NCBI GenBank assembly: GCA_903880855.1
Contig: CAIRQX010000122.1
Coordinates: forward strand, 1 to 64,000
From: an uncultured Burkholderiales bacterium
Lineage (GTDB): Bacteria; Pseudomonadota; Gammaproteobacteria; Burkholderiales; Burkholderiaceae_C
Direction: 5' to 3'
Length of the DNA stretch: 64,000 nt
Shown: one piece after another, positions 3,257-28,308 of the stretch
How positions within the stretch are numbered: position 1 is the stretch's first letter
Layout: every line of letters starts with the position of its first letter
Translations under genes and position numbers: made by a program
The notes under the pieces: model-generated
What the model saw: only the letters and a program-made list of their open reading frames with translations
The model's database searches: none
What the model was told of the DNA's origin: nothing

Positions 3257-4602
<1,346 letters not shown>

Positions 4603-4627
4603 TTGTTAAATTTTGGAGAAACACACT

Positions 4628-5584
4628 ATGTCTAAAACCATCAAAGTGGCGCTCGCAGGTGCGGGTGCTTTTGGCATCAAGCACTTAGACGGTATCAAAA
4701 ATATCGACGGCGTGGAAGTCGTATCACTCATCAGCCGCGAGCTAGAAAAAACCAAAGAAGTTGCTAGTAAATACGGCATCAAGCATGTGACGACCAAACT
4801 GGAAGACAGCTTGGCTTTGCCAGAAGTCGATGCTGTCATTTTGTGTACCCCCACACAAATGCATGCGGCCCAAAGTATTGCTTGCTTGAAAGCAGGCAAA
4901 CACGTGCAAGTGGAAATTCCTTTAGCAGATAGTTGGAAAGACGCTGAATCGGTAGTGGCTTTGGCCAAAGAAAAAGGCTTGGTTGCCATGTGCGGACACA
5001 CCCGCCGCTTTAACCCCAGCCACCAATATGTGCACAACAAAGTGAAAGCAGGGGAGTTCAATATCCAGCAAATGGATGTGCAAACCTATTTCTTTCGCCG
5101 TACCAATATGAATGCGCTTGGCCAAGCCCGTAGTTGGACTGATCACTTGTTGTGGCACCACGCTGCGCATACGGTCGATTTGTTCGCTTACCAAGCAGGT
5201 AGCCCGATTGTCAAAGCCAATGCGGTGCAAGGGCTGATTCATCCAACGCTTGGTATTGCTATGGATATGAGCATCCAGTTGAAAGCAGCTAACGGTGCAA
5301 TTTGCACTTTGAGTTTGTCTTTTAACAACGATGGTCCTTTGGGTACGTATTTCCGCTACATCGGTGACAACGCAACTTACCTAGCGCGTTACGACGATCT
5401 GTACACTGGAAAAGAAGAACAGATCGATGTGTCCAAAGTGGCTGTGTCTATGAACGGTATCGAACTACAAGACCGCGAGTTCTTTGGCGCGATCAAGGAA
5501 GGCCGTGAACCCAACTCCAGCGTGTCGCAGGTGTTGCCTTGTTACAAGGTGTTGCATGAATTAGAGTTGCAACTCAATAGCTAA
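4628..5584 (+). CDS. ligC: 4-carboxy-2-hydroxymuconate-6-semialdehyde dehydrogenase (Gfo/Idh/MocA family)
   Basis: KVALAGAGAFGIKHLDGI Rossmann motif; directly after ligB. Confidence 0.88.
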   Translation: MSKTIKVALAGAGAFGIKHLDGIKNIDGVEVVSLISRELEKTKEVASKYGIKHVTTKLEDSLALPEVDAVILCTPTQMHAAQSIACLKAGKHVQVEIPLADSWKDAESVVALAKEKGLVAMCGHTRRFNPSHQYVHNKVKAGEFNIQQMDVQTYFFRRTNMNALGQARSWTDHLLWHHAAHTVDLFAYQAGSPIVKANAVQGLIHPTLGIAMDMSIQLKAANGAICTLSLSFNNDGPLGTYFRYIGDNATYLARYDDLYTGKEEQIDVSKVAVSMNGIELQDREFFGAIKEGREPNSSVSQVLPCYKVLHELELQLNS

Positions 5585-5613: not shown

Positions 5614-6336
5614 ATGTCATTACTTGGAGAGGCTGCAATTGCTATGTGGTGGGATATAGATCCCAGCATCCGTAGAGAGTTTGAACATTGGCACTCCCAT
5701 GAACACTTTCCTGAGCGACTCAGTATTCCAGGATTTTTAAGAGGTTCACGTTGGGCGCAGGTAGATGGAGGAAAAGGTTTTTTCATCATGTATGAACTCG
5801 ATCTATACGCATCTTTATCTTCACCACATTACTTGGAGCGATTAAATAAGCCAACACCTTGGTCAACTAAGCTGATGCCCTATCACATCAATATGGTGCG
5901 TAGCCAATGTCGTGTGTTGGAGAGTAGGGGAGGGGCTACGGCTAGTTATGCACTTACTTTGCGGTTATCACCTAAAAGTGAAAAAGAGTCTGATTTGCGT
6001 AAGTATTTGAAAACCTTCTTTGATAAAACTGTGTGGCAAGCAGGTATCACTGCTGCACACCTTTTGCATACGCAAACTCCAGCAATTGCACAAACCAAGG
6101 AGCAAGAGATTCGAGGTGGCAATGATCAAACCGCTGATTGGATCGTAGTTGTTACGGGTTACGAAACCGAAGCTTTGAATACTTTGTTAAAAACCGATTT
6201 GTCTGAACGCGCATTAGCCAAAGTTGGTGCTGATGGGCCATTGGTCAGTGGGCTTTATTCTTTGTCCTATACGGCTATGGCGAGTGATGTGCAAGATATA
6301 GCGCAACTTCGACCCGATAAGGTATCACTCAATTAG
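5614..6336 (+). CDS. Uncharacterised protein with possible dimeric alpha/beta-barrel (EthD-like) fold
   Basis: 240 aa ORF; REFEHWHSHEHFPERLSIPGFLRGSRW motif; complete ORF after ligC. Confidence 0.7.
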   Translation: MSLLGEAAIAMWWDIDPSIRREFEHWHSHEHFPERLSIPGFLRGSRWAQVDGGKGFFIMYELDLYASLSSPHYLERLNKPTPWSTKLMPYHINMVRSQCRVLESRGGATASYALTLRLSPKSEKESDLRKYLKTFFDKTVWQAGITAAHLLHTQTPAIAQTKEQEIRGGNDQTADWIVVVTGYETEALNTLLKTDLSERALAKVGADGPLVSGLYSLSYTAMASDVQDIAQLRPDKVSLN

Positions 6337-7243
6337 ATCCCTTTAAAGTTTGGTAGTAGCGAATGGTTTCGCGAATACCCTCTAACAAACTCTTTTCGGT
6401 TCCTAAAGGTAGCAAGCCATTGTTGTATTCGTTGACTGAGTTAGCTGCACTTGGAAGCGGTGAACCTTCGCAGCTTACGTGCGCATTGGGGACTACGAGG
6501 TGAATAGCCGCAACAACTTCTTGCATAGTGGCGATGTGACCTGTCAGATTGAGAGTATGTGCGCCTGTGAAAGTAGATTTCACTGCGGCTTCATAGGCCG
6601 CGGCGACATCATCTACATACACCATGCCTGCACTACCTGTGAAGGGGATCGCGTAAGTTTCTCCCAAAGCTGCAGCTCGGCAAGCTAAAGAGGGGCCTGC
6701 GCTTAATCCGCTATCTCTGCCAGGCCCATACACCACAAATGGGCGCATACCGATACTGGCAATATGGTGGTCTTCCCAGAATGCCCTGGCGCTTCCTTCG
6801 TTCGCAAGTTTGTATGCGCCGTAATGCGTAGTTGGAAATGGCACTTGACCATCAGCAGGACCAAAAACTCCCCCGCTGCTCGTATAAATCACGCGCGCAA
6901 TGCTGTGCTGTCTGGCAGCTTCAAACACATTCAGGGTGCCCATCACATTGATTTGCGCTCCCCTTAGTGGATCTTGTCGACACATGGGTGTAAGGACTCC
7001 AGCTAAATGCACAATGGCATGGCAATCTCTCGCAGCTAAGAGAACGTCTTTGCTATTTGCAATATCTCCCTCCCTCCATTCGATCGATTGAGCTAGTTGA
7101 TTACCAGCCAGCGTTTGTATACGATCCCGTGAAAGATGGGTATCCATAATCCTTACTGGGAAGCCTGCAAGAAGCAATCGCTTTGCAACCCAAGCGCCCA
7201 AGAATCCGCCTCCCCCAGTGATCAGTATGCGCATAAAGTCCAC
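6329..7243 (-). CDS. NAD-dependent epimerase/dehydratase (extended SDR)
   Basis: RILITGGGGFLGAWVAKRL; YGAYKLANE catalytic motif. Confidence 0.88.
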   Translation of the reverse strand: MDFMRILITGGGGFLGAWVAKRLLLAGFPVRIMDTHLSRDRIQTLAGNQLAQSIEWREGDIANSKDVLLAARDCHAIVHLAGVLTPMCRQDPLRGAQINVMGTLNVFEAARQHSIARVIYTSSGGVFGPADGQVPFPTTHYGAYKLANEGSARAFWEDHHIASIGMRPFVVYGPGRDSGLSAGPSLACRAAALGETYAIPFTGSAGMVYVDDVAAAYEAAVKSTFTGAHTLNLTGHIATMQEVVAAIHLVVPNAHVSCEGSPLPSAANSVNEYNNGLLPLGTEKSLLEGIRETIRYYQTLKGSN

Positions 7244-7408: not shown

Positions 7409-8401
7409 ATGAATTTTTCCCAACAACGCAGAAAATTAGTTCAATCGGGAGCGATTTTGACGGCCTCCAGTCTGATGCCTCTTGCTTTTGCGCAGAACAA
7501 GATCCCATTGATTTTTTCTGAAACCATGACGGATCAAGATATTCGTGCGAAATTGTTGGTTGAAAAATTTGGACCATCGCTTGGTGCAGATTTCGAATTC
7601 AAGCCCTATTTTGGAGCTACTTTGTTCAAACAAGGGACAGAGATTGTGGCAATGCAGCGTGGTAACTTGGACATGGGAGCGTTGTCGGTATCCGATATTC
7701 AACGCCAAATTCCAGAGTGGGGCATCGTGGGTGCGCCTTATGTGTTCCGCGATTTAGCGCATATGCAGAAAACATTTGCAAGCGATATCGGACAAGATTT
7801 ATTCAAGATGTCTGAAGAAAAAATGGGCATCAAGATGCTGGCTGTCTACTACATTGGCACGCGCCATGTCAGCACACGTTTGAAGAAAAAAATTAACAAA
7901 CCTGCTGACTTGACAGGTGTGAAGTTGCGTATGCCAGCAGGCGAGGGGTGGCAATTTATTGGTACTGCGCTAGGAGCTAACCCAGTACCTGTGGCCTTTA
8001 CCGAGGTTTATACGGCATTGCAAAGTGGCGCGATAGATGCCCAAGATAACCCGATGCCATTGACTAAGACCATGAAGTTCCATGAAGTCTTATCTCAACT
8101 CGTTTTGACTAATCATTTGGTAAATTTCAATATTTTGTCGGTTCGGAAAACCAAATGGGATACCTTGTCAGCAGCTCAAAAGCAGCGCTTGCAGGCATCG
8201 GCAGATGAAGTCTCTGCCCTGATCACGGCACAAATGGTGAAAGAAGAATCTGAGCTTGTGACATTTTTTAAATCACAAGGATTAGATGTCTACACGCCCG
8301 ATACCAAAGCATTTCGTGATAACGCCATTGATATCATCAAGAAATCAAAATACATCAGTGAGTGGAAGCCCGGAATGCTAGAGAAAATTAGCGCACTCTA
8401 A
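7409..8401 (+). CDS. TRAP transporter solute-binding protein (DctP family)
   Basis: Signal peptide; GVKLRMPAGEGW, FTEVYTALQSGAIDAQDNP; followed by DctQ and DctM. Confidence 0.93.
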   Translation: MNFSQQRRKLVQSGAILTASSLMPLAFAQNKIPLIFSETMTDQDIRAKLLVEKFGPSLGADFEFKPYFGATLFKQGTEIVAMQRGNLDMGALSVSDIQRQIPEWGIVGAPYVFRDLAHMQKTFASDIGQDLFKMSEEKMGIKMLAVYYIGTRHVSTRLKKKINKPADLTGVKLRMPAGEGWQFIGTALGANPVPVAFTEVYTALQSGAIDAQDNPMPLTKTMKFHEVLSQLVLTNHLVNFNILSVRKTKWDTLSAAQKQRLQASADEVSALITAQMVKEESELVTFFKSQGLDVYTPDTKAFRDNAIDIIKKSKYISEWKPGMLEKISAL

Positions 8402-8410
8402 ATAAACGTT

Positions 8411-8929
8411 ATGTTTAAAACGCTAGACAGAGCGGGCCTCTTCTTATTGGCGCGTTCTGAGAATGTTGCCGCGGTATTGATGTGCACAATGATGGGTTCA
8501 TTCTTGTACCAAGTCATCTCGCGTTATGTCTTCAATAATGCAACGCCTTGGGCGGAAGAAATTTGTGTCATTTGCTGGGTTTGGTCCGTGTTGTGGTGTT
8601 CGGCTTTTGTCGCGCGTCCAGACGATGACATACGTATAGATCTGATCACCGTTGCCGTTTCTCCGATGACAAGGCGTGTCATTGAGGGGGCTTGTAGCTT
8701 GGCCATCATCATCCTGTTCGTTATTGGCCTGCCAGGGGCTTGGAGTTATGTGACCTTTATGAAGGTTGAGACGACAGCGGCTTTAGGCTGGCGATTCAAC
8801 TGGGTATTTTCTGTCTATATTCTTTTTGGCTGTGCCGTCATCGTTCGTCAATCATGGGCGTTGTGGTTTTCTATTACAGGACGGGGAAAGATGCGATATG
8901 TCGAAGGCAGAGAGGCCGCTGAAATATGA
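8411..8929 (+). CDS. TRAP transporter small permease (DctQ family)
   Basis: Four hydrophobic segments; VISRYVFNNATPWAEE motif; position between DctP and DctM. Confidence 0.9.
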   Translation: MFKTLDRAGLFLLARSENVAAVLMCTMMGSFLYQVISRYVFNNATPWAEEICVICWVWSVLWCSAFVARPDDDIRIDLITVAVSPMTRRVIEGACSLAIIILFVIGLPGAWSYVTFMKVETTAALGWRFNWVFSVYILFGCAVIVRQSWALWFSITGRGKMRYVEGREAAEI

Positions 8930-10230
8930 GTTTTATCCAAAGTCCATTCGGACTCACAGTATTGATGATTTTAGGCTTGACGATGTTTGGAGCTCCGATT
9001 GGTTTGTCAATGATTGGGGCTTCCATCTTCTATCTCTTTTTTGTGGGGCAAGACATCGGTATTGCCGCTGAACAACTCTTGCAAGGTATATACAACAGTT
9101 ACACATTGCTCTCAGTACCACTATTCATCATTGCAGCGAACTTTATGTCACTAGGTGCAATGAGTGACAAGCTGATGCAGTTTTGTAACGCCTTGGTAGG
9201 GCGTTTTCGCGGTGGTATGGGGCATGTCAACGTGATCTCCAGTTTAATATTTGCAGGCATGTCAGGTTCTGCTGTAGCTGATGCAGTGGGCATTGGTAAG
9301 TTGACTATTGAGATGATGGTTAAAGATGGGCGCTACACGCCTAGCTATGCTGCAGCTATAACTGCCGCTACTGCAGTCATTGGTCCCATCATTCCGCCAT
9401 CTATTCCTATGGTGTTGTACGCATTAGTATCAGATGCGTCTATTGGATATTTGTTTTTAGCTGGGGTGATCCCCGGAATTTTGATGGCCTTAGTTATGTC
9501 TATCGTCAACTGGCGTATGGCGATAAAACATAACTTTCCAGTTGAGGCGCCCGTTCCTTTGCGTGAATTGCCACGGATTACCTGGGAGTCTCTGCCCGCA
9601 TTGATGATGCCAGTGGTCTTATTGGGTGGTATTTACGGCGGTGTTATGACGCCAACGGAAGCTGCCGCCGTGGCTGCGGCTTACGCCTTACTTGTTTCGT
9701 GGTTGTTGTATCGCTCGGTAACCTTGCGTGCAATCTATGCATCGCTTATTTCAAGTGCGCGTAATACAGCTTCGGTTGGTATTTTGATTGCTGGTGCTTT
9801 GGTTTTTAATTACGTAGTCACAATTGAAAATATCCCTGTCGATATCAAGCTGTGGTTGGATGGATTTCATCTCAACATGTGGCAATTCTTGCTGATGGTC
9901 AACCTGTTGTTACTGGTTTTGGGTTGCCTTCTAGATGCAAGCACCGTCTTATTGGTCATTGTTCCTATTTTGATTCCAACCGCACAAGCATTGGGGATCG
10001 ATATGGTTTATTTTGGGTTGGTGGTGGTCGTTAATTTGATGATTGGTCTAATCACTCCTCCTTATGGATTGTTGCTTTTTATCGTAGCAAATATCACCCG
10101 TGCACCCTTCTCGGCGATTGTCAAAGATACGATGCCTTTTATTTATGCATTGATTGCTTCGTTAGCCATCATGACGGCTTTCCCTGACTTCGTACTTTGG
10201 TTGCCTCGTCTCATGGGTTATAAAGGATAA
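8926..10230 (+). CDS. TRAP transporter large permease (DctM family)
   Basis: IGPIIPPSIPMVLYALVSDASIGYLFLAGVIPGI; LITPPYGLLLF. Confidence 0.95.
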   Translation: MSFIQSPFGLTVLMILGLTMFGAPIGLSMIGASIFYLFFVGQDIGIAAEQLLQGIYNSYTLLSVPLFIIAANFMSLGAMSDKLMQFCNALVGRFRGGMGHVNVISSLIFAGMSGSAVADAVGIGKLTIEMMVKDGRYTPSYAAAITAATAVIGPIIPPSIPMVLYALVSDASIGYLFLAGVIPGILMALVMSIVNWRMAIKHNFPVEAPVPLRELPRITWESLPALMMPVVLLGGIYGGVMTPTEAAAVAAAYALLVSWLLYRSVTLRAIYASLISSARNTASVGILIAGALVFNYVVTIENIPVDIKLWLDGFHLNMWQFLLMVNLLLLVLGCLLDASTVLLVIVPILIPTAQALGIDMVYFGLVVVVNLMIGLITPPYGLLLFIVANITRAPFSAIVKDTMPFIYALIASLAIMTAFPDFVLWLPRLMGYKG

Positions 10231-10962
10231 ATGGTGACGGCATCGTATGATTTCTCGGGGCAAGTAGCCGTTATCACTGGCGGCAGTGGTGGCATCGGTA
10301 AAGCCATTTCCCAACGTTTACAGCAAAGTGGTGCGCAAGTATGTAATTGGGATGTGCATGTAAATACTGCTCACCAAGGTAGCCATTTCATACACGTAGA
10401 TGTCACCTCTGAGCAGTCTGTGCATGAAGCCATGGACCAAACTTTGTCAAAGTTCGGAAAAATCGATATCTTCGTAAATTCAGCAGGCATAGCAGGACCT
10501 GTTGCCAATGTTTCCGACTACTCGCTTGAAGACTGGCATCGTGTCATGGATATCAATCTCACCGGCACTTTTCTATGTTGTCGTGCTGCAGTCGCTCACA
10601 TGCAAAAAAATAATCGTGGACGTATTGTCAATTTGGCGTCTATCGCTGGTAAGGAAGGTAATCCCGCCCAGTCGGCATATTCAGCTTCTAAAGCTGGTGT
10701 GATTGCATTGACCAAATCGTTAGGGAAAGAGTTGGCGAAATCCGAAATTCGGGTCAATTGCATTGCACCTGCAATGGTTGCCACCGAACTGCTTGACCAA
10801 ATGACTGCAGAAAAAAGAGAAGAAAACTTTTCCAAAATTCCTATGGGACGCGCAGGATTACCAGAGGAAATTGCCTCCATAGTTGCGTGGCTTTCCAGTG
10901 ATGATTGCTCTTTTTGCACCAGTACGGTTTTTGACGCCTCTGGAGGGCGTGCAACATACTGA
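10231..10962 (+). CDS. Short-chain dehydrogenase/reductase
   Basis: AVITGGSGGIGKAI; AYSASKAGV catalytic YxxxK. Confidence 0.92.
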   Translation: MVTASYDFSGQVAVITGGSGGIGKAISQRLQQSGAQVCNWDVHVNTAHQGSHFIHVDVTSEQSVHEAMDQTLSKFGKIDIFVNSAGIAGPVANVSDYSLEDWHRVMDINLTGTFLCCRAAVAHMQKNNRGRIVNLASIAGKEGNPAQSAYSASKAGVIALTKSLGKELAKSEIRVNCIAPAMVATELLDQMTAEKREENFSKIPMGRAGLPEEIASIVAWLSSDDCSFCTSTVFDASGGRATY

Positions 10963-10978
10963 TGTCTAGATCTAGCAA

Positions 10979-11830
10979 ATGGATACAACTAACACCATCT
11001 CCAAGAAGATCAGGCAACGATACTCTTTGGCGCACTTAACAGCGCTGCCATTGCCACCTCATGAACTTATTGATTTGGCGATTGCGACTGGCTATGACCA
11101 TGTAGGCGTAAGACTGCTACCACCCGCGCCTGGCATTGCTGCCTACCCAATCATGGATGAACCTTTGATGCTGAAAGAGGTAATGGCACGTGTGGACGAA
11201 CATCCGCAGATGGTGTGGGATATAGAAGTGATCCGACTCATGCCTGGCTTTCAAGTTAATACATTCGAATCTGCCTTGGCGTGTGGCCAAGCGATGGGAG
11301 CGCGTGCTGTTTTGGTTTCTGCAGGCCCCGTAGAAGACCCTTTTGAACTGGCGCACTATTTTTCTGATTTTTGTGAATTGGCTGGAAAGTGGGGCTTGAC
11401 TGCTAATTTAGAGTTCATGCCTTGGACACCTGTACCTGATCTCCTAACAGCGCATGCACTTATTAAAACCGCTGGCAGGCCCAGCAATGCCAGGATTTTG
11501 GCAGACACCATACATGTGGAAAGATCCCGAACAACATTGAAGGATTGGGCAGAACTACCCGCATCTTTGATTGACTATGTGCAATTTTGTGATGCGCCCG
11601 CAGGTGTTCCTGACACACTAGAGGAAATTTTGCGGCAAGCACGCTATGAACGGCTATTACCTGGAGAGGGAGGTATTGACCTGCAGGGCTTTTTGCGTCA
11701 CTTACCAATAGGTCGCCCCATTGCTGTTGAATGTTGGCACCATCTGCGAACTCCTGCCCTAGGTTTTGAAGCTTGGGCGCGCCAAGCACTACAAGCTACA
11801 CAACATCTGGTTCATACTTTTTCACACTGA
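10979..11830 (+). CDS. Sugar phosphate isomerase/epimerase-like TIM-barrel protein
   Basis: GYDHVGVRLLP; TANLEFMPWTPVPD; FCDAPAG; paralogous to 16112..16921. Confidence 0.85.
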   Translation: MDTTNTISKKIRQRYSLAHLTALPLPPHELIDLAIATGYDHVGVRLLPPAPGIAAYPIMDEPLMLKEVMARVDEHPQMVWDIEVIRLMPGFQVNTFESALACGQAMGARAVLVSAGPVEDPFELAHYFSDFCELAGKWGLTANLEFMPWTPVPDLLTAHALIKTAGRPSNARILADTIHVERSRTTLKDWAELPASLIDYVQFCDAPAGVPDTLEEILRQARYERLLPGEGGIDLQGFLRHLPIGRPIAVECWHHLRTPALGFEAWARQALQATQHLVHTFSH

Positions 11831-11838
11831 AAGTGTTT

Positions 11839-12282
11839 ATGGTAAAAAAAATATTCATTCTTAACGGCCCTAATCTGAACCGACTCGGAAAACGCGAGCC
11901 ACATATTTACGGAACGGAGTCCTTAGCAGATGTCAAAAAACGCTGTAATGCGCATGCAAAAATATTAGGCCTTAAAGTAGAGTTTCGGCAAACCAATTTC
12001 GAGGGAGTATTGGTTGAAAGCGTGCATGATGCGATAGATGCAGGCGACGGCATTATCATTAACCCAGCAGGTTTAACTTTCACATCGGTTCCTTTAATGG
12101 ACTCGCTAAAAATGTTTGACGGCCCAAAGATTGAGTTGCATATCAGTAATGTGCACACCCGAGAACCCATCTATCACAACTCCCTGATTTCACGTGTCGC
12201 TACAGCAGTGATGGCTGGTTTTGGGACGGATGGATACCTAATGGCATTAACCTGGATGTCCATGAAACTAGCAAAGAGTTGA
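11839..12282 (+). CDS. Type II 3-dehydroquinate dehydratase-like protein with active-site substitutions
   Basis: FILNGPNLNRLGKREPHIYG, IELHISNVHTREP; but TFTS for THTS and IYHNS for FRHHS. Confidence 0.85.
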   Translation: MVKKIFILNGPNLNRLGKREPHIYGTESLADVKKRCNAHAKILGLKVEFRQTNFEGVLVESVHDAIDAGDGIIINPAGLTFTSVPLMDSLKMFDGPKIELHISNVHTREPIYHNSLISRVATAVMAGFGTDGYLMALTWMSMKLAKS

Positions 12283-12290
12283 AATCGCAT

Positions 12291-13331
12291 ATGCATAAAT
12301 ACAGAATTGCCATCATTGGCGCAGGAACCATAGGCCGAACACATATTGAAGCCGCTATGAAGAACCCTGCTGTTGATATTGTGGGAGTAGCCGAGCCACA
12401 TGAACCAGGAAAAGTCTGGGTGCAAAGGCATCAAATTCCTTGTTTTGCTAGCCATGGTGATTTGCTAGATAAAACTAAACCCGACGGAGTGATCATTGCC
12501 ACACCTAATGATGCGCATGCCAATATTGCGCTAGATTGTCTGGGTAGCGGTGCGGCAGTTCTCGTCGAAAAACCTATTGCTGATACGCTTGCGAATGCCC
12601 GTAGTATTTGTGATGCAGCGCAAGCCAAAGGTTTACCAGCATTGGTGGGGCATCAGCGGCGCCATAACCCCATCATGCAGCAAGCTAAATCAATTGTGGA
12701 ATCAGGCGTGCTTGGAAAGCCTGTCAGCATGACGGCCATGTGTACTTGGTACAAGGATGACGACTATTTCAAAGCGGCGTGGCGTCGTCAATCAGGTGGT
12801 GGGCCTGTTCTCATTAATCTGATACACGATATAGATTTGATGCGGTTTTTGTATGGAGACATCGCTAGCTTGCAAGCCATGACGTCTAACGCCATTCGCG
12901 GTCATGAAGTCGAAGATACCGCTGTGTTGATGATGCGCTTTGTCAATGGCGCACTTGGAACCGTTACCGTGTCAGATACGACGGTATCGCCTTGGAATTA
13001 CGATTTATCCGCTCGGGAAACCGATAGATTTCCACAACAGGACATCAACTCCCATTTTTTCTCCGGAACCCATGGTTCTTTGACCTTGCCTAAATTAGAA
13101 GTCTGGAGTTACAAAGACCAACGCCATTGGGAAAAGCCGATCAGCGTGATGCGATGTGAACCTATGCGTGCTTCGCCCTATGAAGCGCAATTGAATAATT
13201 TCTTAGGTGTAATTGCAGGCAAAGAAAAACCGGTTTGCTCAGCCTTAGATGGGTTGCGTGCATTGGAGGCCGCTTTGGCTGTGCGGGAATCTGCGGCTAG
13301 TGGACTAGAAATACGCTTGAACCCCGCATAA
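12291..13331 (+). CDS. Gfo/Idh/MocA-family oxidoreductase
   Basis: YRIAIIGAGTIGRTHIEA; LVEKPIADT; ATG at 12291. Confidence 0.9.
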   Translation: MHKYRIAIIGAGTIGRTHIEAAMKNPAVDIVGVAEPHEPGKVWVQRHQIPCFASHGDLLDKTKPDGVIIATPNDAHANIALDCLGSGAAVLVEKPIADTLANARSICDAAQAKGLPALVGHQRRHNPIMQQAKSIVESGVLGKPVSMTAMCTWYKDDDYFKAAWRRQSGGGPVLINLIHDIDLMRFLYGDIASLQAMTSNAIRGHEVEDTAVLMMRFVNGALGTVTVSDTTVSPWNYDLSARETDRFPQQDINSHFFSGTHGSLTLPKLEVWSYKDQRHWEKPISVMRCEPMRASPYEAQLNNFLGVIAGKEKPVCSALDGLRALEAALAVRESAASGLEIRLNPA

Positions 13332-13344
13332 ACTGCATAAGTCT

Positions 13345-14922
13345 TTAGCGATCAAAAGAGGTGGCATCCATCAGCAGGATGTCTTTTGCGAGTCGAGGTT
13401 TAAAACCCATTTGGTCCAATACATCTCTTTGTAAATCAATACCAGGTGCGATTTCAAAAAGTTCAACGCCGTGTTGCGTCAGCCTAAAACTAGCACGCTC
13501 TGTTAAATAAAGAACTTGCTGTTTTCTGACCTGCGCCTGAGGCCCACTGAATGTTATTTGATCAACCTTAGGCACAAGTTTTTGCACTTTGCCTTGTTCT
13601 AACACTTCCATTTTTCCTTGACCCGTTGCCAGTTTGACCCCCTTGGCTGCAAAGGTTCCACAAAATACGACTTTGCGAGCGTTTTGTGCGATGTCGATGA
13701 AACCACCTGGCCCCACGGTTAGGCCACCTAGTTTGCTGACATTGACATTTCCTTCTTGGTCAAATTCACCGAAGCCAAGAAACGCGATATCGAGTCCACC
13801 GCCTGAATAAAAATCGAATTGGGTAGGCGCGTCGAGCATAGCGGTTGCATTGCGCGCATAACCAAATAAAACACCATCCATCAGGGTTCCACCGTAGGTG
13901 CCGTGTTCAATGGTTTGGTAGATGCGATGCTGTTCGTTGCGGGCTGCAATTATTTTTGCGACAGCATCTGGCACGCCAACGCCATAGTTGATCACAGGGC
14001 GTAATTTATTGGTGTTGAAGAGTTCTGTGTAGGCTCTGCGCGCAATGGCTTGCCTTTCGCTGAATTCTTCCTTAGAGGCTGAGACTTCGTTCGCATGGTC
14101 TATAGCCTCACTGTGTGTTCTGGTCTCACCGAATAGTTCGCCACTGAATGCAGGATCAAAGGGAATGTCATAGCTCGTTTTCTGATTGGCATCAACGACG
14201 ATGGCATCTACCCATGCCGCTGGAATTCTTACCTCACGCGCTTTCAAAGATCCTCTAGGTAAATGTTCTTTGACCTGAACAATCACCTTGCCATCGCTAT
14301 TTTTCGCGGCTAATGCAAGTGACTGTGCATCTAAGTTGGCGGCTTCATGTTCAAAGCTGATGTTTCCGTCTTCATCCGCAGCACTAGCGCGCACGATGGC
14401 AATATGAATAGGGAAGGGCTTGTAGCGTAAATATTCGCGCCCATCCATCACCACCACTTCTGATAAATCGTCTTTGGCAGAGGCATTCATCTTGCCGCCG
14501 CCCATACGTGGATCACACACGGTTCCTAAGCCTACGTGTGTGAATAAGCCAGGTCGACCAGCACCAATCTCGCGCATAAGTTGGCTTGATACGCCGCCTG
14601 GCAATATATAGGCTTCGATCTTTTCATTGAGGGCCAGTTGTTGCATTGCAGGAGACCAAACCCAATGGCCACCGATCACGCGTTTAACCAAGCCTTCATG
14701 CGCAAAGCAGTTCATGCCTGTCGTCTTTTTATCGCCTATTCCTAAGGCATGCATCACCGTGAGGTTGCGCGGTCTTTGTGTAGACAAAAACCGGTGTTGT
14801 ATAGCCTCAAACAGGTGAGAAGCTTCCATCAAGCCACCCCCACCGCCCATCAAACCTACTGTGTCACCGTCTTGAATTAAATCGGCAGCTTGTGCAGCAG
14901 TCATGAATTTTCTGTGCATCAT
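13345..14922 (-). CDS. Acyl-CoA:acetate/3-ketoacid CoA-transferase (family I)
   Basis: GDTVGLMGGGGGLMEASHL; YQTIEHGTYGG with putative catalytic Glu; QFDFYSGGGLDIAFLGFGEFDQEGNVNVSKLGG. Confidence 0.9.
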   Translation of the reverse strand: MMHRKFMTAAQAADLIQDGDTVGLMGGGGGLMEASHLFEAIQHRFLSTQRPRNLTVMHALGIGDKKTTGMNCFAHEGLVKRVIGGHWVWSPAMQQLALNEKIEAYILPGGVSSQLMREIGAGRPGLFTHVGLGTVCDPRMGGGKMNASAKDDLSEVVVMDGREYLRYKPFPIHIAIVRASAADEDGNISFEHEAANLDAQSLALAAKNSDGKVIVQVKEHLPRGSLKAREVRIPAAWVDAIVVDANQKTSYDIPFDPAFSGELFGETRTHSEAIDHANEVSASKEEFSERQAIARRAYTELFNTNKLRPVINYGVGVPDAVAKIIAARNEQHRIYQTIEHGTYGGTLMDGVLFGYARNATAMLDAPTQFDFYSGGGLDIAFLGFGEFDQEGNVNVSKLGGLTVGPGGFIDIAQNARKVVFCGTFAAKGVKLATGQGKMEVLEQGKVQKLVPKVDQITFSGPQAQVRKQQVLYLTERASFRLTQHGVELFEIAPGIDLQRDVLDQMGFKPRLAKDILLMDATSFDR

Positions 14923-14924
14923 GG

Positions 14925-16085
14925 CTATCGGTGGATATCAAATAGTGCAGCGCCCTTTTTGAGTGCGCTCTTTGCAATAACACCTCGGTGTATTTCGCTC
15001 GTGCCATCGTAAATGCGGTAGATACGGGCATCGCGGTAATAGCGTTCAATGGGCAGCTCTTTGCAAAACCCCATCCCTCCAAAGACTTGAACTGCCCGGT
15101 CTACGACGCGTCCAAGGGTTTCAGCGGCATGCACTTTGACCATCGCGATTTGTTCCCGGGCATCTAATCCTTGGTCTAGCATCCAAGCCGCTTGGTAGAC
15201 CATCCAACGGGCTGCGTTGATCTCAATCACGCTATCGGCCAACATGTGTTGCACCATCTGGAAGTCTCCAATACGCGTATTGAATTGATGACGGTCATTG
15301 GCGTAAGACAACATCATTTCGCATACATGCGATGCTTTTCCAACAGCGCGCGCTCCCACTTGGGCCAGGCGAACAACATTCAAGGCGCCCATTGCTAACT
15401 TGAATCCTTGTCCTACCTCGCCCAATAGCGCTGTATCTTCCAACTGCACATTGTCAAAAAAGAGTTCAAGGTGTGGCGTTCCGCGAAGCCCCATCATTTT
15501 TTGGTCTTTGCCTACCGTAAATCCGGCAAGTCCTTTGTCAACCATAAACATGCTGATCTCTTTTTCACCAGTCTTGGCCGACACTAAAAAGAAGTCACTC
15601 CACTCACCATCGCTGATGAAGTGCTTAGACCCATTGAGCACCCATCCTTTATCGTTTTTCTTTGCATGGGTTTTGATGCCTGCTGCATCGGAACCTGCGC
15701 CTGGTTCTGTGATGCAGATTGCGCATGTACGTTTACCCTCGACGCTAGGTTTTAACCACCTTTCAACTTGATCGTTCTTGCAGTGCAATAGGGGTTCATA
15801 GACATTGCCAAACGCACGGCGAATCAATATGTCTGTGGTGTGACCAAATTGTTCTTCACACAATATTCTGTCTAGATTGGTGAGGCCACCACCACCAAGT
15901 TCAATTGGCATATTCATGGCAAATAGGCCAAGTGCTTTACTTTTTTTATAAATAGCGTTTGCATGGATGCTCTCGAGATGGCCTTTTTCTTCGACTTCAT
16001 CCTCAAGGGGTTTGAGTTCTTCCGAGATGAAGCGGCGTACCGTTTCAATCATCATCCTTTGTTCATCATTCAGTGCGAAATCCAT
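14925..16085 (-). CDS. Acyl-CoA dehydrogenase
   Basis: AICITEPGAGSDAAGIKT; QVFGGMGFCKELPIERYYRDARIYRIYDGTSEIHR. Confidence 0.95.
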   Translation of the reverse strand: MDFALNDEQRMMIETVRRFISEELKPLEDEVEEKGHLESIHANAIYKKSKALGLFAMNMPIELGGGGLTNLDRILCEEQFGHTTDILIRRAFGNVYEPLLHCKNDQVERWLKPSVEGKRTCAICITEPGAGSDAAGIKTHAKKNDKGWVLNGSKHFISDGEWSDFFLVSAKTGEKEISMFMVDKGLAGFTVGKDQKMMGLRGTPHLELFFDNVQLEDTALLGEVGQGFKLAMGALNVVRLAQVGARAVGKASHVCEMMLSYANDRHQFNTRIGDFQMVQHMLADSVIEINAARWMVYQAAWMLDQGLDAREQIAMVKVHAAETLGRVVDRAVQVFGGMGFCKELPIERYYRDARIYRIYDGTSEIHRGVIAKSALKKGAALFDIHR

Positions 16086-16111
16086 ACATCACTTTCGGGC
16101 TATGTTGTTTT

Positions 16112-16921
16112 TTACTGGACAGATTCTTTGGTTTTTTGAAGGCATTTTTTAGCCCACGCAGCATTCGAAAACTTGGCTTCTTTTTCAAGATTGACCACCT
16201 CGACACTTATTGGTAAATCATTGGGTAAGGCGTTGAATAAGCCTTTTAAATCAATGTTTCCTTCGCCAGGTAACTCGCGGGCACACCGGGCGCTATGAAC
16301 CAACTCTTCGGTGGTGAAGGAGGTGCCTGCTTGACCATCGCAGATTTGGCTGTAATGCAAGAGTGAAGGATCAATTGCGCTTATATCTTCTAAAGTGGTA
16401 TGCGAGCGCCCGAAATGCAGGGCATCAACCAAGATACCTGCATTCATGGGGGAGCCAGCATTTTTGACAATCCTTGATGCAGCAAGTGCATTGGGAACAG
16501 CTGTCCAGGGCATGAATTCAAGGTCGGCTGTCAACCCAAAGGGTTGCATGGCTTCACATAGCTTTGCGTAATTGTCAGTCAGCCTAGATTCATTGGCATC
16601 ATCTCCGGCGACCAAGATGGCTTTTGCTTGGAGCGTAGCTCCGATTTCATACAGGGCATCCCATGCGTGTGCATCGAAAGATGCGTTGATTCGAATTAAC
16701 TCCAGATCAAAGATGCCAATGCCAGTGTCCTGGAGGACAGCTAAAGTTTCTTTCAACTCGTGTGGTCTGTCGATTAAGAACTGCTGAGGTGCATTGGGCG
16801 CATTGGGCCACAGTCTCAGCCCAACATAGTCATAGCCGCTTTCAGCAGCGACCAAAACAGCTTGATGCGGGGTGCAACGGTGCGAAGTAAGGTATGCAAG
16901 AGAAAAACTACGTTTTGTCAT
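16112..16921 (-). CDS. Sugar phosphate isomerase/epimerase-like TIM-barrel protein
   Basis: GYDYVGLRLWP; TADLEFMPWTAVPN; paralog of 10979..11830. Confidence 0.85.
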   Translation of the reverse strand: MTKRSFSLAYLTSHRCTPHQAVLVAAESGYDYVGLRLWPNAPNAPQQFLIDRPHELKETLAVLQDTGIGIFDLELIRINASFDAHAWDALYEIGATLQAKAILVAGDDANESRLTDNYAKLCEAMQPFGLTADLEFMPWTAVPNALAASRIVKNAGSPMNAGILVDALHFGRSHTTLEDISAIDPSLLHYSQICDGQAGTSFTTEELVHSARCARELPGEGNIDLKGLFNALPNDLPISVEVVNLEKEAKFSNAAWAKKCLQKTKESVQ

Positions 16922-18695
16922 ATTTACCTTTTATTCCCGCTCTTTCCAAAGCATGCTTTGCTGCTAAATAGCCAAACGTAAGACCAGGTCCAATTGTTAT
17001 TCCTGGCGCAGGGTATACGCCACCCATGATGGAATGCATGTCGTTGCCGCATGCGTAAAGACCATCGATTGGGTGACCATTGGCATGCATGACCCTGGCA
17101 TCGCAGTCGGTAACCAAGCCAGTCGCAGCGCCAATATCTCCTGGGTACAGAGCTATTGCATAGAAAGGTCCTTGACGAAGGGCGCCTAGGCAAGGGTTAG
17201 GTCCTTTCCAAGTCGCGTCACCGTTAGCACGTTGGTAATCTGTGGTGCCACGTTGGAAGTCATCGTCCACGCCTTTGTCTGCGAATTGGTTGAATCGCTC
17301 TACGGTTGCTTTGAGTTTGTCTTCAGGGACCTTGAGTTTCTGCGCCAATTCAACCAACGTTGCGCCTTGCTTAAGGTAACCGTCCGTAAGGAAAGAGTCT
17401 AGACCTTTTCCGCCAGGGCGAATCATGCCAAGGCCATAACGTTTGAGTGCGCCTGCATCGCATACCAGCCATGTTGGAATGCTAGGTGTCTTTTGGTTGT
17501 GATCTTGCATGGCGATGCCAAACAGATGGTAGGAGGTGGATTCGTTTAGATAACGCTCACCTTGGCTATCGACAGCCATCATTCCTGGCTTACCTCTATC
17601 CATCACAAAGTGAGGGAAGGCTGCAGTAGTTCCATCTGCGCGTTGGCGAATAGATACAGGTGCCCAAAAGGCATGGGTTAATCCCCCAGTGCCCAACTGG
17701 CCACCCACTTGCAGTGCTAAATCTTGCGCGCTACCCGTATTTCCCGGTCCTACCGAACACCAAGACTCTTTGGCGCCAGGCAGCATGTCTGATCGACGTG
17801 TGGGATGGTGGTTAAAACCACCACTGGCCATCACAACACCTCCTCTGCATAGCAATGTGCGTTGAACTTTTTCTCCGTTTTGTAATGTTTGTTGAAGTAC
17901 TGCGCCTTCAATGGTGTTGCCGTTTTTTAGCAGTTGCGTGACTTCTGTTTGTGTCACCAACAAACCTTTACGTGCGATGTAGCTATAGAGCATGCGCGCA
18001 ATCATTGCGTTACCCATTACCAAGCGTGTGCTTCTAGGGTGGATCATCTTGTCTAAAAGGTGTCGCGTAATGATTCGTAAGCTATACCTAAAAGACGCCC
18101 ATGTTTTGGTTAAGCGGAGCAGATGGAAGATGTCATCGCGGTCGACCATCATTCCACCGAGCACCGTGAATTCAGGAATGGGGTTGCGAACCAGCGTGAG
18201 GTTGGGGCCTAGCAATTTGCCATCAAACGGTTGCGGTTCAATGGCTCGTCCTTTGAGAACCGAACCTTCTAGTTCGGAAAGATAGTCTGGGTGAAGAGGA
18301 CGAACTTGGAACTGCAATGCCGTGTGGTCTTCTAACTTGGCGATAGCGAGGGGGCCGTTGTCGATAAAAGCCTGTCGCAGTTCTGGATCTGATCGTTCGC
18401 CTACAGCATTATTTAAAAAAGTTGCAACACGCTCCGGTGTGTCATCAGGGTTGACATGTAAGCCGCGTTTTGTACCAGGTACCCAGCTGGTTGATGCCGA
18501 TAAAGCCGTTGTGCCACCCACGTGTGCCATCCGTTCTACCAAAAGAACTCTTGCACCATCTATCGCTGCATTGAGAGCGGCTGAAAAACCGGCGCCGCCA
18601 GAACCTATGACCAAAAGGTCGACCGTTTCTTGGTCCTCAAATTGCGCTAACTCGGTATCAATATGTTGGGTAAGGGGGGTGAGATCTTGGCGCAT
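16908..18695 (-). CDS. FAD-binding dehydrogenase (fumarate reductase / 3-ketosteroid-delta1-dehydrogenase superfamily)
   Basis: VDLLVIGSGGAGFSAALNA; C-terminal GGVYPAPGITIGPGLTFGYLAAKHA. Confidence 0.9.
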   Translation of the reverse strand: MRQDLTPLTQHIDTELAQFEDQETVDLLVIGSGGAGFSAALNAAIDGARVLLVERMAHVGGTTALSASTSWVPGTKRGLHVNPDDTPERVATFLNNAVGERSDPELRQAFIDNGPLAIAKLEDHTALQFQVRPLHPDYLSELEGSVLKGRAIEPQPFDGKLLGPNLTLVRNPIPEFTVLGGMMVDRDDIFHLLRLTKTWASFRYSLRIITRHLLDKMIHPRSTRLVMGNAMIARMLYSYIARKGLLVTQTEVTQLLKNGNTIEGAVLQQTLQNGEKVQRTLLCRGGVVMASGGFNHHPTRRSDMLPGAKESWCSVGPGNTGSAQDLALQVGGQLGTGGLTHAFWAPVSIRQRADGTTAAFPHFVMDRGKPGMMAVDSQGERYLNESTSYHLFGIAMQDHNQKTPSIPTWLVCDAGALKRYGLGMIRPGGKGLDSFLTDGYLKQGATLVELAQKLKVPEDKLKATVERFNQFADKGVDDDFQRGTTDYQRANGDATWKGPNPCLGALRQGPFYAIALYPGDIGAATGLVTDCDARVMHANGHPIDGLYACGNDMHSIMGGVYPAPGITIGPGLTFGYLAAKHALERAGIKGKYDKT

Positions 18696-18710
18696 ATAAA
18701 AATATGTGGA

Positions 18711-19505
18711 TTAAACCTCTAATAAGAACTGGACCATGAGTTCTCGGACTTGCAAAAACATATCTTCGCCGGCCGTGGTTTTGCAGCCTTTGGCGCGCGC
18801 TACAGCTATCAACGGAGGAATTGCGGGGGCTGTAATGACACAGCCGATGAACATATTTGGTGTGATGGTATCTAAGTCAAAGGGGCTAGGGTCTGTCTCC
18901 CGCATACCAACGGGTGTTGCATTGATAGCTACATCAAACCCCATGATGTTAGAGCTACCGACGTAGACACGGCCATGTTTTAAGCTGTTAAGTCGGTGAA
19001 TGAGGGAATCACGGCGTTCGGTGTTTTCGTCTTGTATGGCCAGCTCTTTGACACCTGCTAAAACCAGACTGTGTGCGATGGCGGATCCTGCGCCGCCAGC
19101 TCCCACGAGGAGAGCTGTTTTATTTCTGAGGTCGAAGCCCTTGGATTCGATGGCCTTGACATAGGCTATTCCATCGAACATATCACCATGCCAACTGCCG
19201 TCTTTATTTCGTCGGATCGTATTCACCGCACCTAAAAATTCTGCTCGGGGTGAGCTGGTGGCGCAGAGGGCGTGACAGTCAAACTTATGTGGGACGGTGA
19301 CGATGATGCCGTCGATATTACGCATCAATGAAACGCCTCCAAACCATTGTTTGAGATCTTGGCTAGGTACTTGGGCTGGAATGCAAACGGCGTCTTTGCC
19401 ATGTTGCTCAAAAGCTTGGGTCACGCCAAAGGGAGACTTTACTTGGGCAATGGGATCGCCGACGATGAAGTAAACGCGCGTGGCGCCGCTGAAGTTATCA
19501 AGCAT
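18711..19505 (-). CDS. Shikimate dehydrogenase-family protein
   Basis: GDPIAQVKSPFGVTQAF; VTVPHK; GAVNTIR; GAGGAGSAIAHSL; INATPVGM. Confidence 0.88.
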   Translation of the reverse strand: MLDNFSGATRVYFIVGDPIAQVKSPFGVTQAFEQHGKDAVCIPAQVPSQDLKQWFGGVSLMRNIDGIIVTVPHKFDCHALCATSSPRAEFLGAVNTIRRNKDGSWHGDMFDGIAYVKAIESKGFDLRNKTALLVGAGGAGSAIAHSLVLAGVKELAIQDENTERRDSLIHRLNSLKHGRVYVGSSNIMGFDVAINATPVGMRETDPSPFDLDTITPNMFIGCVITAPAIPPLIAVARAKGCKTTAGEDMFLQVRELMVQFLLEV

Positions 19506-19601: not shown

Positions 19602-20384
19602 TCAAATCAGCGGACGCAAACTTTGCGCGACCTCGCGTAAAACTGGTAACACACGATTGACAGCTTCTTTGGAGGTTTCCAGCTGAATCGGCATGCTGAC
19701 GGTGAGCGCGCCTTGCACATTTCCTTTGTGGTCACGCAAAGGCACTGCGACGCCTCGGTATGCCAAGTCGAGTTGTTGCTCCGACAGAGCCCAGTCTTGG
19801 GCGCGAATGCGAGCGAGTTCAGTGCGCATGCGCTTGGGGTCTGTGATGGTGTGTGAGCTGAAGGCCTTGAGTTCATGCGTGGCCAGCCATTTCTCTACTT
19901 CTTCTTCACCCAACAGCGCCAACAACAAAACCCCAGCTGATGTCACGTGACAGGGAACGCGCGCGCCCAAGGCAAAGCTTGTGTTCATACTGCGGTTTTG
20001 ACCATTACGCGCGATATAGACCAAATCAAAACCATCGAGTACCGCTAGAAAAGAAATTTCTTGTGTTCCCATCGCCAAGCGTTGCAACGAAGGTTGTACG
20101 ATGCGTGGTAAGCGCGCGGACTCCAAATAAGACTGACCCAATCGCATCACCTTTGGTGTGAGCCAAAACAACTTGCTGTCGGTCATCACATAACCGAGGT
20201 GCAACAAAGTCAGCAAATAACGACGCGCTGCAGTGCGCGTCAAACCGCAACGTTGCCCGGCTTGCGTAGCAGTCAATCGGGGGTTGTTTTCGTCAAAGGC
20301 TTGCACAATGGCCAACCCTTTGTCGAGGCCGGCGATCCAGTCTTTTTTGTCGAGGTTTGGTGGTTGCGTCAGCAGTGTGCTCAT
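19602..20384 (-). CDS. IclR-family transcriptional regulator (PcaR/PobR-like)
   Basis: GLAIVQAFDENNPRLTATQAGQRCGLTRTAARRYLLTLLHLGY wHTH; C-terminal effector domain; alternative start at 20429. Confidence 0.92.
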   Translation of the reverse strand: MSTLLTQPPNLDKKDWIAGLDKGLAIVQAFDENNPRLTATQAGQRCGLTRTAARRYLLTLLHLGYVMTDSKLFWLTPKVMRLGQSYLESARLPRIVQPSLQRLAMGTQEISFLAVLDGFDLVYIARNGQNRSMNTSFALGARVPCHVTSAGVLLLALLGEEEVEKWLATHELKAFSSHTITDPKRMRTELARIRAQDWALSEQQLDLAYRGVAVPLRDHKGNVQGALTVSMPIQLETSKEAVNRVLPVLREVAQSLRPLI

Positions 20385-20590
20385 AGGTAATACAAGGGGA
20401 AACCCGAGATGGGTTTGATCATCGCACACTGTAGATCGTTAATCGCGCATTTGGGATTTATTTCCGATGTTTTTTCCACTTTTCCCTTTAAATTCAACAG
20501 GTTTAGTTACTTTGAAATGAAAGCTACTGTTTTTTTAACACCGAGCGCTATTAAAGGGCTCATTTCCAACCGTCACTAGGAGACATCTAA

Positions 20591-21733
20591 ATGAATAAAC
20601 GTTCCACATTGAAAGTCGTTGCGGCTGCAACCGTATTGGCATTTGCTGGATTGGCCCAAGCCCAGCAAACCATCAAGATCGCCAACATTGTTGAGCTTTC
20701 AGGACCAGGCACAACGGCTGGCACTTTGTTTAAAAACGGCGTCGAGTTGGCGGTCAAAGAAATCAACGAAAACGGTGGCATCTTGGGCAAGAAGATCGAG
20801 AGCACAACGGTCGATACCCAAACTAATCCTGGTGTCGCCAAAGGTTTGACGCAAAAAGCAGTCGATGACGGCGTATTAGCTATTTTTGGCCCTGTCTATT
20901 CAGGTTCCATCATGGTGTCTATGGCTGAGAGCAAGCGTGGTGAAGTTCCTAACTTCACCGGTGGTGAGGCTGCCGCGATAACGCAGCAAGGCAATCCGTA
21001 TGTATTCCGTACCGCTTTCGGTCAAAGTACATCCTTTCCAAAGTTAGTGAAATACATCAACACCAAAGCCAAAACACTCGCTGTCATTTATGTGAACAAC
21101 GACTTTGGCAAAGGCGGTCGCGACACTTTGACCAAACTCATGACGGGTGGACCTACCCAAATCGTGGCCGATATTTCTACTGACGCGGGTCAAGTAGATT
21201 TTTCTGCTGCCGTGTTGAAGGCTAAGCAAAGCAATGCCGATGCGATTTTTGCTTACACCAACGAAGAAGAGTCAGCACGCCTATTGCGTGAGTTGAAGAA
21301 GCAAGGTTGGACCAAGCCGGTGATTGGTGAGACCACGCTGACTGGTCAAAAAGTGATCGAGTTGGCAGGTGATGCCGCCAATGGTGCAGTGGCCCACGTG
21401 GGATTGACGGTGGACGCTCCCATTCCTGAAATGTTGAAATTCAAAGCCAAGTACTACCAAGCCTATGGAAGCATTTCAGACCATAACGGTATCAAGGGTT
21501 ACACCGGTGTCTACATCTTAAAAGCTGCGATTGAAAAAGCCGGCAAGATCGATCGCAAAGCAGTCACGGATGCGCTCCACGGCATTCAAATCAGCGCCAA
21601 GAAACATCCTGGCGTGATCATGGACGTGTCTTTTGATGAAAAAGGCGACTTAGACCGTGAGAGCTTCTTGGTCGAGGTGAAAAACGGTCGCCAATCTGTC
21701 GTGGCTACCTTGCCTGCACTGTCTAAGAAATAA
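20591..21733 (+). CDS. Branched-chain amino acid/aromatic-type ABC transporter substrate-binding protein
   Basis: Signal peptide; IKIANIVELSGPGTTAGTLFKNGVELAVKEINENGGI. Confidence 0.93.
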   Translation: MNKRSTLKVVAAATVLAFAGLAQAQQTIKIANIVELSGPGTTAGTLFKNGVELAVKEINENGGILGKKIESTTVDTQTNPGVAKGLTQKAVDDGVLAIFGPVYSGSIMVSMAESKRGEVPNFTGGEAAAITQQGNPYVFRTAFGQSTSFPKLVKYINTKAKTLAVIYVNNDFGKGGRDTLTKLMTGGPTQIVADISTDAGQVDFSAAVLKAKQSNADAIFAYTNEEESARLLRELKKQGWTKPVIGETTLTGQKVIELAGDAANGAVAHVGLTVDAPIPEMLKFKAKYYQAYGSISDHNGIKGYTGVYILKAAIEKAGKIDRKAVTDALHGIQISAKKHPGVIMDVSFDEKGDLDRESFLVEVKNGRQSVVATLPALSKK

Positions 21734-21742
21734 ACCAGTCTG

Positions 21743-22618
21743 ATGACCGACTTTCTACAACTCTTTTTCAGTGGCCTAGCCACTGGAAGTATTTACGCAT
21801 TAGCTGCCTTGGGTTTTACATTGCTCTGGCAAGCTTCGGGGACGATTAACTTCGCCCAAGGCGAGTTTGTGATGTTGCCCGCATTCATGATGATTGGATG
21901 TTTGCTGGCTGGCATGCCTTTGTTGGTGAGCTTTTGCGTGAGTTGTGTTTTGTCGGTCTTGGTTTTGGGTTGGTTGTTCAAGCGTGGCCTGGTAGACCCT
22001 TTGTTTAAGTACGGCATGATGCCGATCGTCGTAGCGACTATCGGCTTGTCGATTGCCATGCGCAATGGGGTCCGTGCAGGTTTTAGCGCGGAGCCTCAGC
22101 CATTCCCCAATTTGTTTCCTGACGAAATCTACAACGTTGCTGGCGTAGTAGTCTCTGGAAGCGATGTAGGCACTTTTGTCTTTGCGATGGCACTGGTGCT
22201 TGTGACACAAGCATTTTTAGCGAAGACTGTGACTGGCCGTGCCATGCAAGCAGTCGCGCAAAACACAGAGAGTGCCTCGGTGTTGGGTATCAATGTGCCT
22301 CGCATGATTTTTTATACCTTTGCGATCAATGCATTGTTGGCCGCTGCAGCCGCTATTTTGGTGACGCCCACTTATCTTGCGAAATTCGATATGGGCGCAT
22401 CGCTCGGAACCAAAGCTTTTTTTGCAGCCATCATTGGTGGGTTCAACAATTCACGTGGCGCCTTGTTGGGTGGTTTGATCGTGGGTGTGTGTGAAAACTT
22501 GGCGGCTGCCTATATTTCATCCGCCTATAAAGACGCAGTGGCCCTGATTATTTTTATGGTGGTGATTTTGTTCAAGCCACAAGGTTTGCTGGGTAAAAAA
22601 GTAGAGCGCAAGGTATGA
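21743..22618 (+). CDS. Branched-chain-type ABC transporter permease (LivH-like)
   Basis: FFSGLATGSIYALAALGFTLLWQASGTINFAQGEFVM. Confidence 0.95.
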   Translation: MTDFLQLFFSGLATGSIYALAALGFTLLWQASGTINFAQGEFVMLPAFMMIGCLLAGMPLLVSFCVSCVLSVLVLGWLFKRGLVDPLFKYGMMPIVVATIGLSIAMRNGVRAGFSAEPQPFPNLFPDEIYNVAGVVVSGSDVGTFVFAMALVLVTQAFLAKTVTGRAMQAVAQNTESASVLGINVPRMIFYTFAINALLAAAAAILVTPTYLAKFDMGASLGTKAFFAAIIGGFNNSRGALLGGLIVGVCENLAAAYISSAYKDAVALIIFMVVILFKPQGLLGKKVERKV

Positions 22619-24365: not shown

Positions 24366-24366
24366 C

Positions 24367-25092: not shown

Positions 25093-25187
25093 GAGTGCGC
25101 TTAGCCGAGGCTTATCATGCGCCAAAATGGCACATGTCGGGGTTTCACGCGGTCGCTCCCTTTTCTGACTTTTAAAGGCTTGTATTT

Positions 25188-25631: not shown

Positions 25632-25634
25632 AAC

Positions 25635-26468: not shown

Positions 26469-26518
26469 TCTACGCTGTTTGGTCTAATCTTCATATTAGT
26501 TGCTGTTAGGAGTCATCT

Positions 26519-27409: not shown

Positions 27410-27418
27410 GGGGCGGCC

Positions 27419-28303: not shown

Positions 28304-28308
28304 TTTTT

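Follow-up and report, generated by a model that had tools for sequence, protein, structure and literature searches.

A 64,000-nucleotide stretch of DNA from an uncultured Burkholderiales bacterium (contig CAIRQX010000122.1 of assembly GCA_903880855.1), hereafter the window, carries two convergent operons that form a candidate island for the catabolism of hydroaromatic acids, next to genes of the lig ring-cleavage pathway. The draft genome of the host (2.8 Mb, 168 contigs) has Limnohabitans and other Comamonadaceae as its nearest relatives, and its source is a freshwater Limnohabitans-like bacterium. Pfam and NCBIfam profile matches to the window proteins revealed that all 12 genes named in the original prediction are present, intact and members of the expected families, and that LigA, LigB and LigC at 3.3-5.6 kb are real. 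Intergenic distances between the named genes range from -14 to 26 bp inside each operon, so these are two real operons, adjoining the LigAB cluster and comprising the following genes.

7409..8401, plus strand: DctP, solute-binding protein of a tripartite ATP-independent periplasmic (TRAP) transporter (PF03480, 202 bits; 43-48% to DctP of AroQ/QuiC/pca clusters)
8411..8929, plus strand: DctQ, TRAP small permease (PF04290)
8926..10230, plus strand: DctM, TRAP large permease (PF06808, 366 bits; 61-63% to plasmid AroQ clusters)
10231..10962, plus strand: short-chain dehydrogenase/reductase (SDR) oxidoreductase (PF13561; 49-55% homologues in KstD loci)
10979..11830, plus strand: TIM1, metal-dependent triosephosphate isomerase (TIM) barrel of isomerase/dehydratase type, placed by tree in a KstD-linked clade (PF01261)
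11839..12282, plus strand: AroQ1, type II dehydroquinase of a catabolic subfamily (PF01220, 168 bits)
12291..13331, plus strand: Gfo, Gfo/Idh/MocA oxidoreductase (PF01408; homologues in KstD loci and beside AroQ1-type genes)
13345..14922, minus strand: CoAT, fused class I CoA-transferase of YdiF/FadX type (2ahu, YdiF, E=1e-116)
14925..16085, minus strand: ACD, acyl-CoA dehydrogenase with Asp for the usual catalytic Glu (IYDGT)
16112..16921, minus strand: TIM2, paralogue of TIM1 in the KstD-linked clade (Pfam match; tree)
16908..18695, minus strand: KstD-like FAD enzyme, predicted ring-ketone alpha,beta-dehydrogenase (NF009477, 824.6 bits against a cut-off of 758)
18711..19505, minus strand: AroE1, shikimate-dehydrogenase family (nearest solved structure 4k28, E=6e-38)

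Conserved co-occurrence in other genomes was looked for in a sample of 80 loci encoding KstD relatives, whose neighbourhoods were scored with AroE1 counted within 1.5 kb of KstD, and it was found. AroE1 lay near KstD in all 32 loci with at least 60% KstD identity, in 24 of the 36 loci at 50-60% and in none of the 12 below 50%, an association that is more than chance. Where the loci at or above 60% had long enough flanks, a second KstD (KstD2) and a NIPSNAP protein were present in 19 of 19 and a TIM barrel in 18 of 19. The conserved core consists of AroE1, KstD and the TIM barrel, usually accompanied by KstD2, the NIPSNAP protein and an IclR regulator; the same core set occurs in annotated plasmid records of Diaphorobacter, Rhizobium, Paracoccus and Paraburkholderia, and a Klebsiella record reads AroE-KstD-NIPSNAP-KstD2-TIM followed by a major facilitator superfamily (MFS) gene. 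Of the 84 genomes of the genus, up to 30 have a TIM gene of the KstD-linked clade. Outlets beside the core include LigC in several Limnohabitans and, in S. meliloti, pca plus hydroxyquinol-type genes. L013:5845-8238 and most Limnohabitans loci encode KstD2 and NIPSNAP as one fused protein of ~800 aa; elsewhere the two are separate genes. No publication assigning the cluster to a known substrate was found in the openly searchable literature, most subscription journals lying outside the search.

Two further observations concern these relatives. In K. pneumoniae CP125156, labelled a plasmid yet 5.37 Mb long, AroE-KstD-NIPSNAP-KstD2-TIM follows shortly after cyoE (L097:9168-14586), with fragmented KstD frames. 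In KstD2, the PDY motif present at the Tyr119 site of KstD is often missing.

The KstD of the window matches solved 3-ketosteroid dehydrogenases and, in an alignment to 4c3x with a 20-residue numbering offset, keeps the equivalents of the catalytic residues Y119, Y318, Y487 and G491 of KstD1; KstD should therefore desaturate beside a ring ketone. The ketone would come from AroE1, the constant partner of KstD, as the AroE family suggests. Among the sites of shikimate dehydrogenase, AroE1 keeps K65 and D102, has V in place of S14 and is changed in the Q244 region. TIM1 and TIM2 both retain an E/D/Q/E metal-ligand pattern at aligned positions, and a tree placed them in one KstD-linked clade (54 rows), with TIM1 on a long branch, split from dehydroshikimate dehydratase (DSD)/QuiC with 100/100 support. 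A role of either barrel as DSD was consequently rejected, so that the island lacks a second complete AroQ/AroE/DSD set, contrary to the original prediction; the AroQ/AroE/DSD set at 25.2-28.3 kb is real.

In the plus operon, AroQ1 belongs to the type II dehydroquinate (DHQ) dehydratase family, yet its pocket is altered (H85F and R117Y, S. coelicolor numbering). All 13 members of the AroQ1 group in the AroQ alignment have Phe for His85 and Tyr or His for Arg117, and all 11 rows having His85 also have Arg117; in DHQase structures, both residues contact ring hydroxyls. The AroQ1 group is a single clade, so the linked change represents one evolutionary event. It was rejected as proof of a new substrate, as the same subfamily sits in QuiC clusters without KstD. 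AroQ1 shares 58-72% identity with AroQs of plasmid clusters, mostly composed of shikimate dehydrogenase (SDH), TRAP or ATP-binding cassette (ABC) transporter, AroQ, QuiC and pca genes, which makes the plus operon similar to quinate/shikimate clusters of a known kind. The subfamily was found in rhizobial and Paracoccus TRAP/QuiC/pca clusters, AroQ1-type genes sitting with SDH, QuiC and pca, and Burkholderiales relatives elsewhere reach 45-54% at most, mostly in other contexts. Because the TRAP-AroQ1 half resembles such ordinary clusters, specialisation of the island, which had been argued from the other set at 25-28 kb, does not follow from that set alone. The solved structure nearest to DctP is 4pf6, whose ligand is probably 3-deoxy-D-manno-octulosonic acid (KDO).

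The two operons are flanked by the following genes.

3257..5584, plus strand: LigA, LigB and LigC (an OxRdtase_C Gfo/Idh protein), likely downstream ring-cleavage genes (PF07746, PF02900, PF19858)
5614..6336, plus strand: u5614, orphan protein of 240 aa without a Pfam family, predicted tandem dimeric alpha+beta barrel (monooxygenase/anthrone-oxidase-like)
6329..7243, minus strand: NADepi, NAD-dependent epimerase/dehydratase family (PF01370; 45-54% homologues in KstD loci)
19602..20429, minus strand: PcaR/PcaU-like IclR regulator heading the minus operon (TIGR02431, 268.0 bits against a cut-off of 284.75)
20591..29310, plus strand: divergent neighbour LivKHMGF-AroQ2-AroE2-HPPD-like-DSD-AKR (HPPD, 4-hydroxyphenylpyruvate dioxygenase; AKR, aldo-keto reductase), an ordinary quinate/shikimate-to-protocatechuate set

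Both u5614 and NADepi, upstream of the predicted start at 7409, are two more genes of the system, and the IclR gene, 96 bp before AroE1, also lies outside the predicted limits. No Pfam or NCBIfam match was obtained for u5614; its AlphaFold2 model (predicted local distance difference test score, pLDDT, of 84) has 5f9p and 3mcs as top PDB folds. Its homologues occur repeatedly beside KstD in Alphaproteobacteria, and the family has an invariant motif, WH..EH.PERL..PGF, in a predicted barrel that is duplicated.

Gene families of both operons share single loci elsewhere and the convergent layout recurs, suggesting that the two operons probably belong together as one system. In Phyllobacterium (L060, L066 and L072), SDR, u5614, NADepi, AroQ1 (61%), Gfo, KstD and QuiC occupy one locus; relatives of SDR, u5614, NADepi, AroQ1 and Gfo surround KstD and QuiC in Phyllobacterium and Rhizobium; and a single Aquibium locus (L073) contains TRAP genes with DctM at 63%, SDR at 52%, NADepi at 53%, KstD at 48% and QuiC. 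In another Comamonadaceae genus (L163), TRAP-Gfo-AroQ-DSD-AroE converges on CoAT-ACD-TIM2-NIPSNAP-KstD2. It is also conceivable, though unlikely, that TRAP and AroQ1 of the plus operon, with SDR and Gfo as quinate dehydrogenases, make up an ordinary quinate/shikimate cluster that is partly redundant, and that the minus operon is an unrelated neighbour, given that alphaproteobacterial plasmids carry TRAP-AroQ-QuiC-SDH-pca clusters without KstD (DctP 43-48%, DctM 61-63%, AroQ 58-61%) and that R. leguminosarum has AroQ1 at 72% together with SDH, QuiC and pca. However, TIM1 of the plus operon falls in the KstD-linked clade, homologues of SDR, Gfo, NADepi, u5614 and AroQ1 share loci with KstD in Rhizobium, Phyllobacterium and Thalassobaculum, and in the nearest relative (L019/L121) KstD-TIM2 is likewise faced by Gfo, all of which argue against this reading.

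The original prediction had placed CoA activation and acyl-CoA dehydrogenation among the pathway steps, and a route of this kind, in which the acid is first activated, dehydrogenated by ACD as in cyclohexanecarboxylate degradation and then aromatised, appears improbable. CoAT matches 2ahu over its full length, the catalytic Glu of its TIEHG motif being aligned with TVETG as in class I enzymes of YdiF/FadX type. The pair adjoins TIM2-NIPSNAP-KstD2 in 9 loci with CoAT at or above 80%, and apart from the CoAT of the window all those retrieved at that identity have this position. The ACDs of these cassettes have Asp in the position of the catalytic Glu of most ACDs; in most orthologues the residue before it is Phe, and smaller residues at the preceding position have been reported for alpha-substituted substrates, e.g., cyclohexane-1-carbonyl-CoA (PMC11659651). 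Against this, the ACD of the window has Tyr at that position and scores far under the cut-offs of the cyclohexanecarbonyl-CoA dehydrogenase NCBIfam equivalogs (238.2 vs 650 and 156.5 vs 575.35), ACD (76-87%) and CoAT were present in only 6 of the 68 KstD loci at or above 50% KstD identity, the closest relative (L121) has no ACD-CoAT between TIM2 and Gfo, and in locus L164 the pair stands alone beside a LysR-like gene. ACD-CoAT is a mobile accessory and not part of the core. Rather doubtful as well is the degradation of some other alicyclic ring (steroid, terpenoid or cyclitol) by a KstD module to which AroE1 and AroQ1 were recruited: the likeness of KstD to 3-ketosteroid dehydrogenases would suit it, as would the top NCBIfam match of Gfo to inositol 2-dehydrogenase IolG, though far under cut-off (152.9 vs 355), and the match of the window DSD barrel to IolI, whereas no steroid or iol catabolic genes were noticed in the window or most inspected clusters (one iolG annotation, in the S. 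meliloti locus) and the genes nearby are lig, pca, DSD and QuiC.

The island thus constitutes a real, conserved catabolic module that most likely serves hydroaromatic acids; a search of the open literature gave no description of it. The more specific reading, that it breaks down carboxylic acids with a polyhydroxylated cyclohexane or cyclohexene ring, akin to quinate and shikimate, has about an even chance of being correct; plant-type ring acids would probably be taken up, aromatised and handed to the neighbouring protocatechuate ring-opening genes, and an end product of this aromatic kind would suit the adjacency of lig (of pca in other loci). The TRAP transporter may import the acid, AroE1 would oxidise a ring hydroxyl to the ketone, and SDR and Gfo might handle other positions or stereoisomers, as their families suggest. 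KstD would then take a hydride and a proton from two ring carbons beside the ketone, as with 3-ketosteroids, a chemistry to which the conserved active-site residues point for a putative substrate of this type. AroQ1 and the metal-dependent TIM enzymes could remove water or move a double bond, leading to aromatisation of the ring as protocatechuate or gallate, which LigAB would open. In this strain, CoAT and ACD could hypothetically serve as a net acid-to-1-ene-acid desaturase, adding a second desaturation via a CoA thioester where relatives have KstD2-NIPSNAP. An example fitting all parts is the conversion of dihydroshikimate or 3,4-dihydroxycyclohexanecarboxylate to 3-dehydroshikimate or protocatechuate. 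KstD acting at C1-C2 of 3-oxo-dihydroshikimate would yield 3-dehydroshikimate, and at C4-C5 of 3-dehydroshikimate would yield gallate directly, both leading to a LigAB-type substrate, the former via the DSD at 27.4 kb. More tentatively, hydroaromatic acids may be turned into catechol acids by a new aromatisation route that relies on KstD-type desaturation of a ring ketone and not on DSD dehydration.

Several points weigh against this proposal. The substrate is guessed from gene families, and AroE-family enzymes can use other substrates, the 5-ketofructose reductase 7cok being among the structure matches of AroE1. KstD2 was not found in the 168-contig draft of this strain and its closest relative (L121) has one, so the pathway may differ or be incomplete here. 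The core was also found adjoining paa genes, so the outlet is not always protocatechuate, and comparison of the promoters and intergenic regions of both operons gave no common operator or regulatory motif. What stands of the earlier proposal is a single two-operon system with a fitting aromatic end product and a KstD that keeps its catalytic residues; the DSD barrels and the central CoA steps do not.

Compared with quinate/shikimate catabolism (qui/qsu: quinate/shikimate dehydrogenase, DHQ dehydratase and QuiC/QsuB), the island has similar AroE- and AroQ-family enzymes, a protocatechuate-type outlet and TRAP uptake where those clusters use TRAP or ABC systems. A KstD-type desaturase, NIPSNAP or other barrel proteins and Gfo/SDR come in addition, however, the TIM barrels are of a different clade, the AroQ1 pocket is altered and no DSD lies inside the island (the DSD is at 27419-28303). 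In aerobic cyclohexanecarboxylate aromatisation, for which NCBIfam models exist, a ring ketone is likewise produced by an alcohol dehydrogenase (ChcB) and desaturated toward an aromatic acid by KstD-like enzymes (ChcC1/ChcC2); the dehydrogenase of the island is instead of AroE type, no P450 was seen, and KstD lies far under the ChcC1 and ChcC2 equivalog cut-offs (421.1 vs 900 and 293.6 vs 1000). KstD shares with 3-ketosteroid delta1-dehydrogenase the fold family and all four catalytic residues, but has AroE and lig/pca as linked genes. CoA-dependent cyclohexanecarboxylate degradation (AliB-type dehydrogenases) also combines an acyl-CoA dehydrogenase with a CoA-activating enzyme, whereas the island has a CoA-transferase and not a ligase, an Asp base and scores under all family cut-offs, in an accessory pair only. 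Judged by sequence, the parts of the island appear to work like the quinate and Chc pathways, yet fall outside the defined members of both.

Leaf litter and the organic matter of fresh waters commonly contain alicyclic acids, those of the quinate type included, and, to our knowledge, bacterial routes for such acids beyond the quinate pathway are poorly known. The module is present in abundant freshwater bacteria and several proteobacterial classes, plasmids included, and has cultured hosts, among them Limnohabitans Jir61, B9-3 and 2KL-1 and Diaphorobacter HDW4B, so that its substrate is directly testable. If correct, KstD aromatisation would extend from freshwater Limnohabitans to rhizobia, Paracoccus and Klebsiella, and alicyclic dissolved organic matter might be degraded by it.

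Additional observations concern dehydroquinases and QuiC. AroQ1 (11839-12282) and AroQ2 (25188-25631), both in catabolic clusters, were the only dehydroquinases found in the host genome, a type I enzyme not being found there, and Limnohabitans Jir61 (G033; 8 contigs, 100% complete) has AroQ2 only, within its catabolic cluster; a catabolic dehydroquinase may double as the shikimate-pathway enzyme. An AroQ-like gene occurs on about 100 Klebsiella plasmids; in the single one inspected (L139:6001-6450) it lies within a RidA/polyamine-ABC cluster and has DKNGAYG in place of the usual REPxIYG motif, so that the catalytic Arg seems lost. At 26519-28303 of the window, QuiC is seemingly divided between two genes whose order is reversed, the HPPD-like one preceding the dehydratase one, and both match NF042435.

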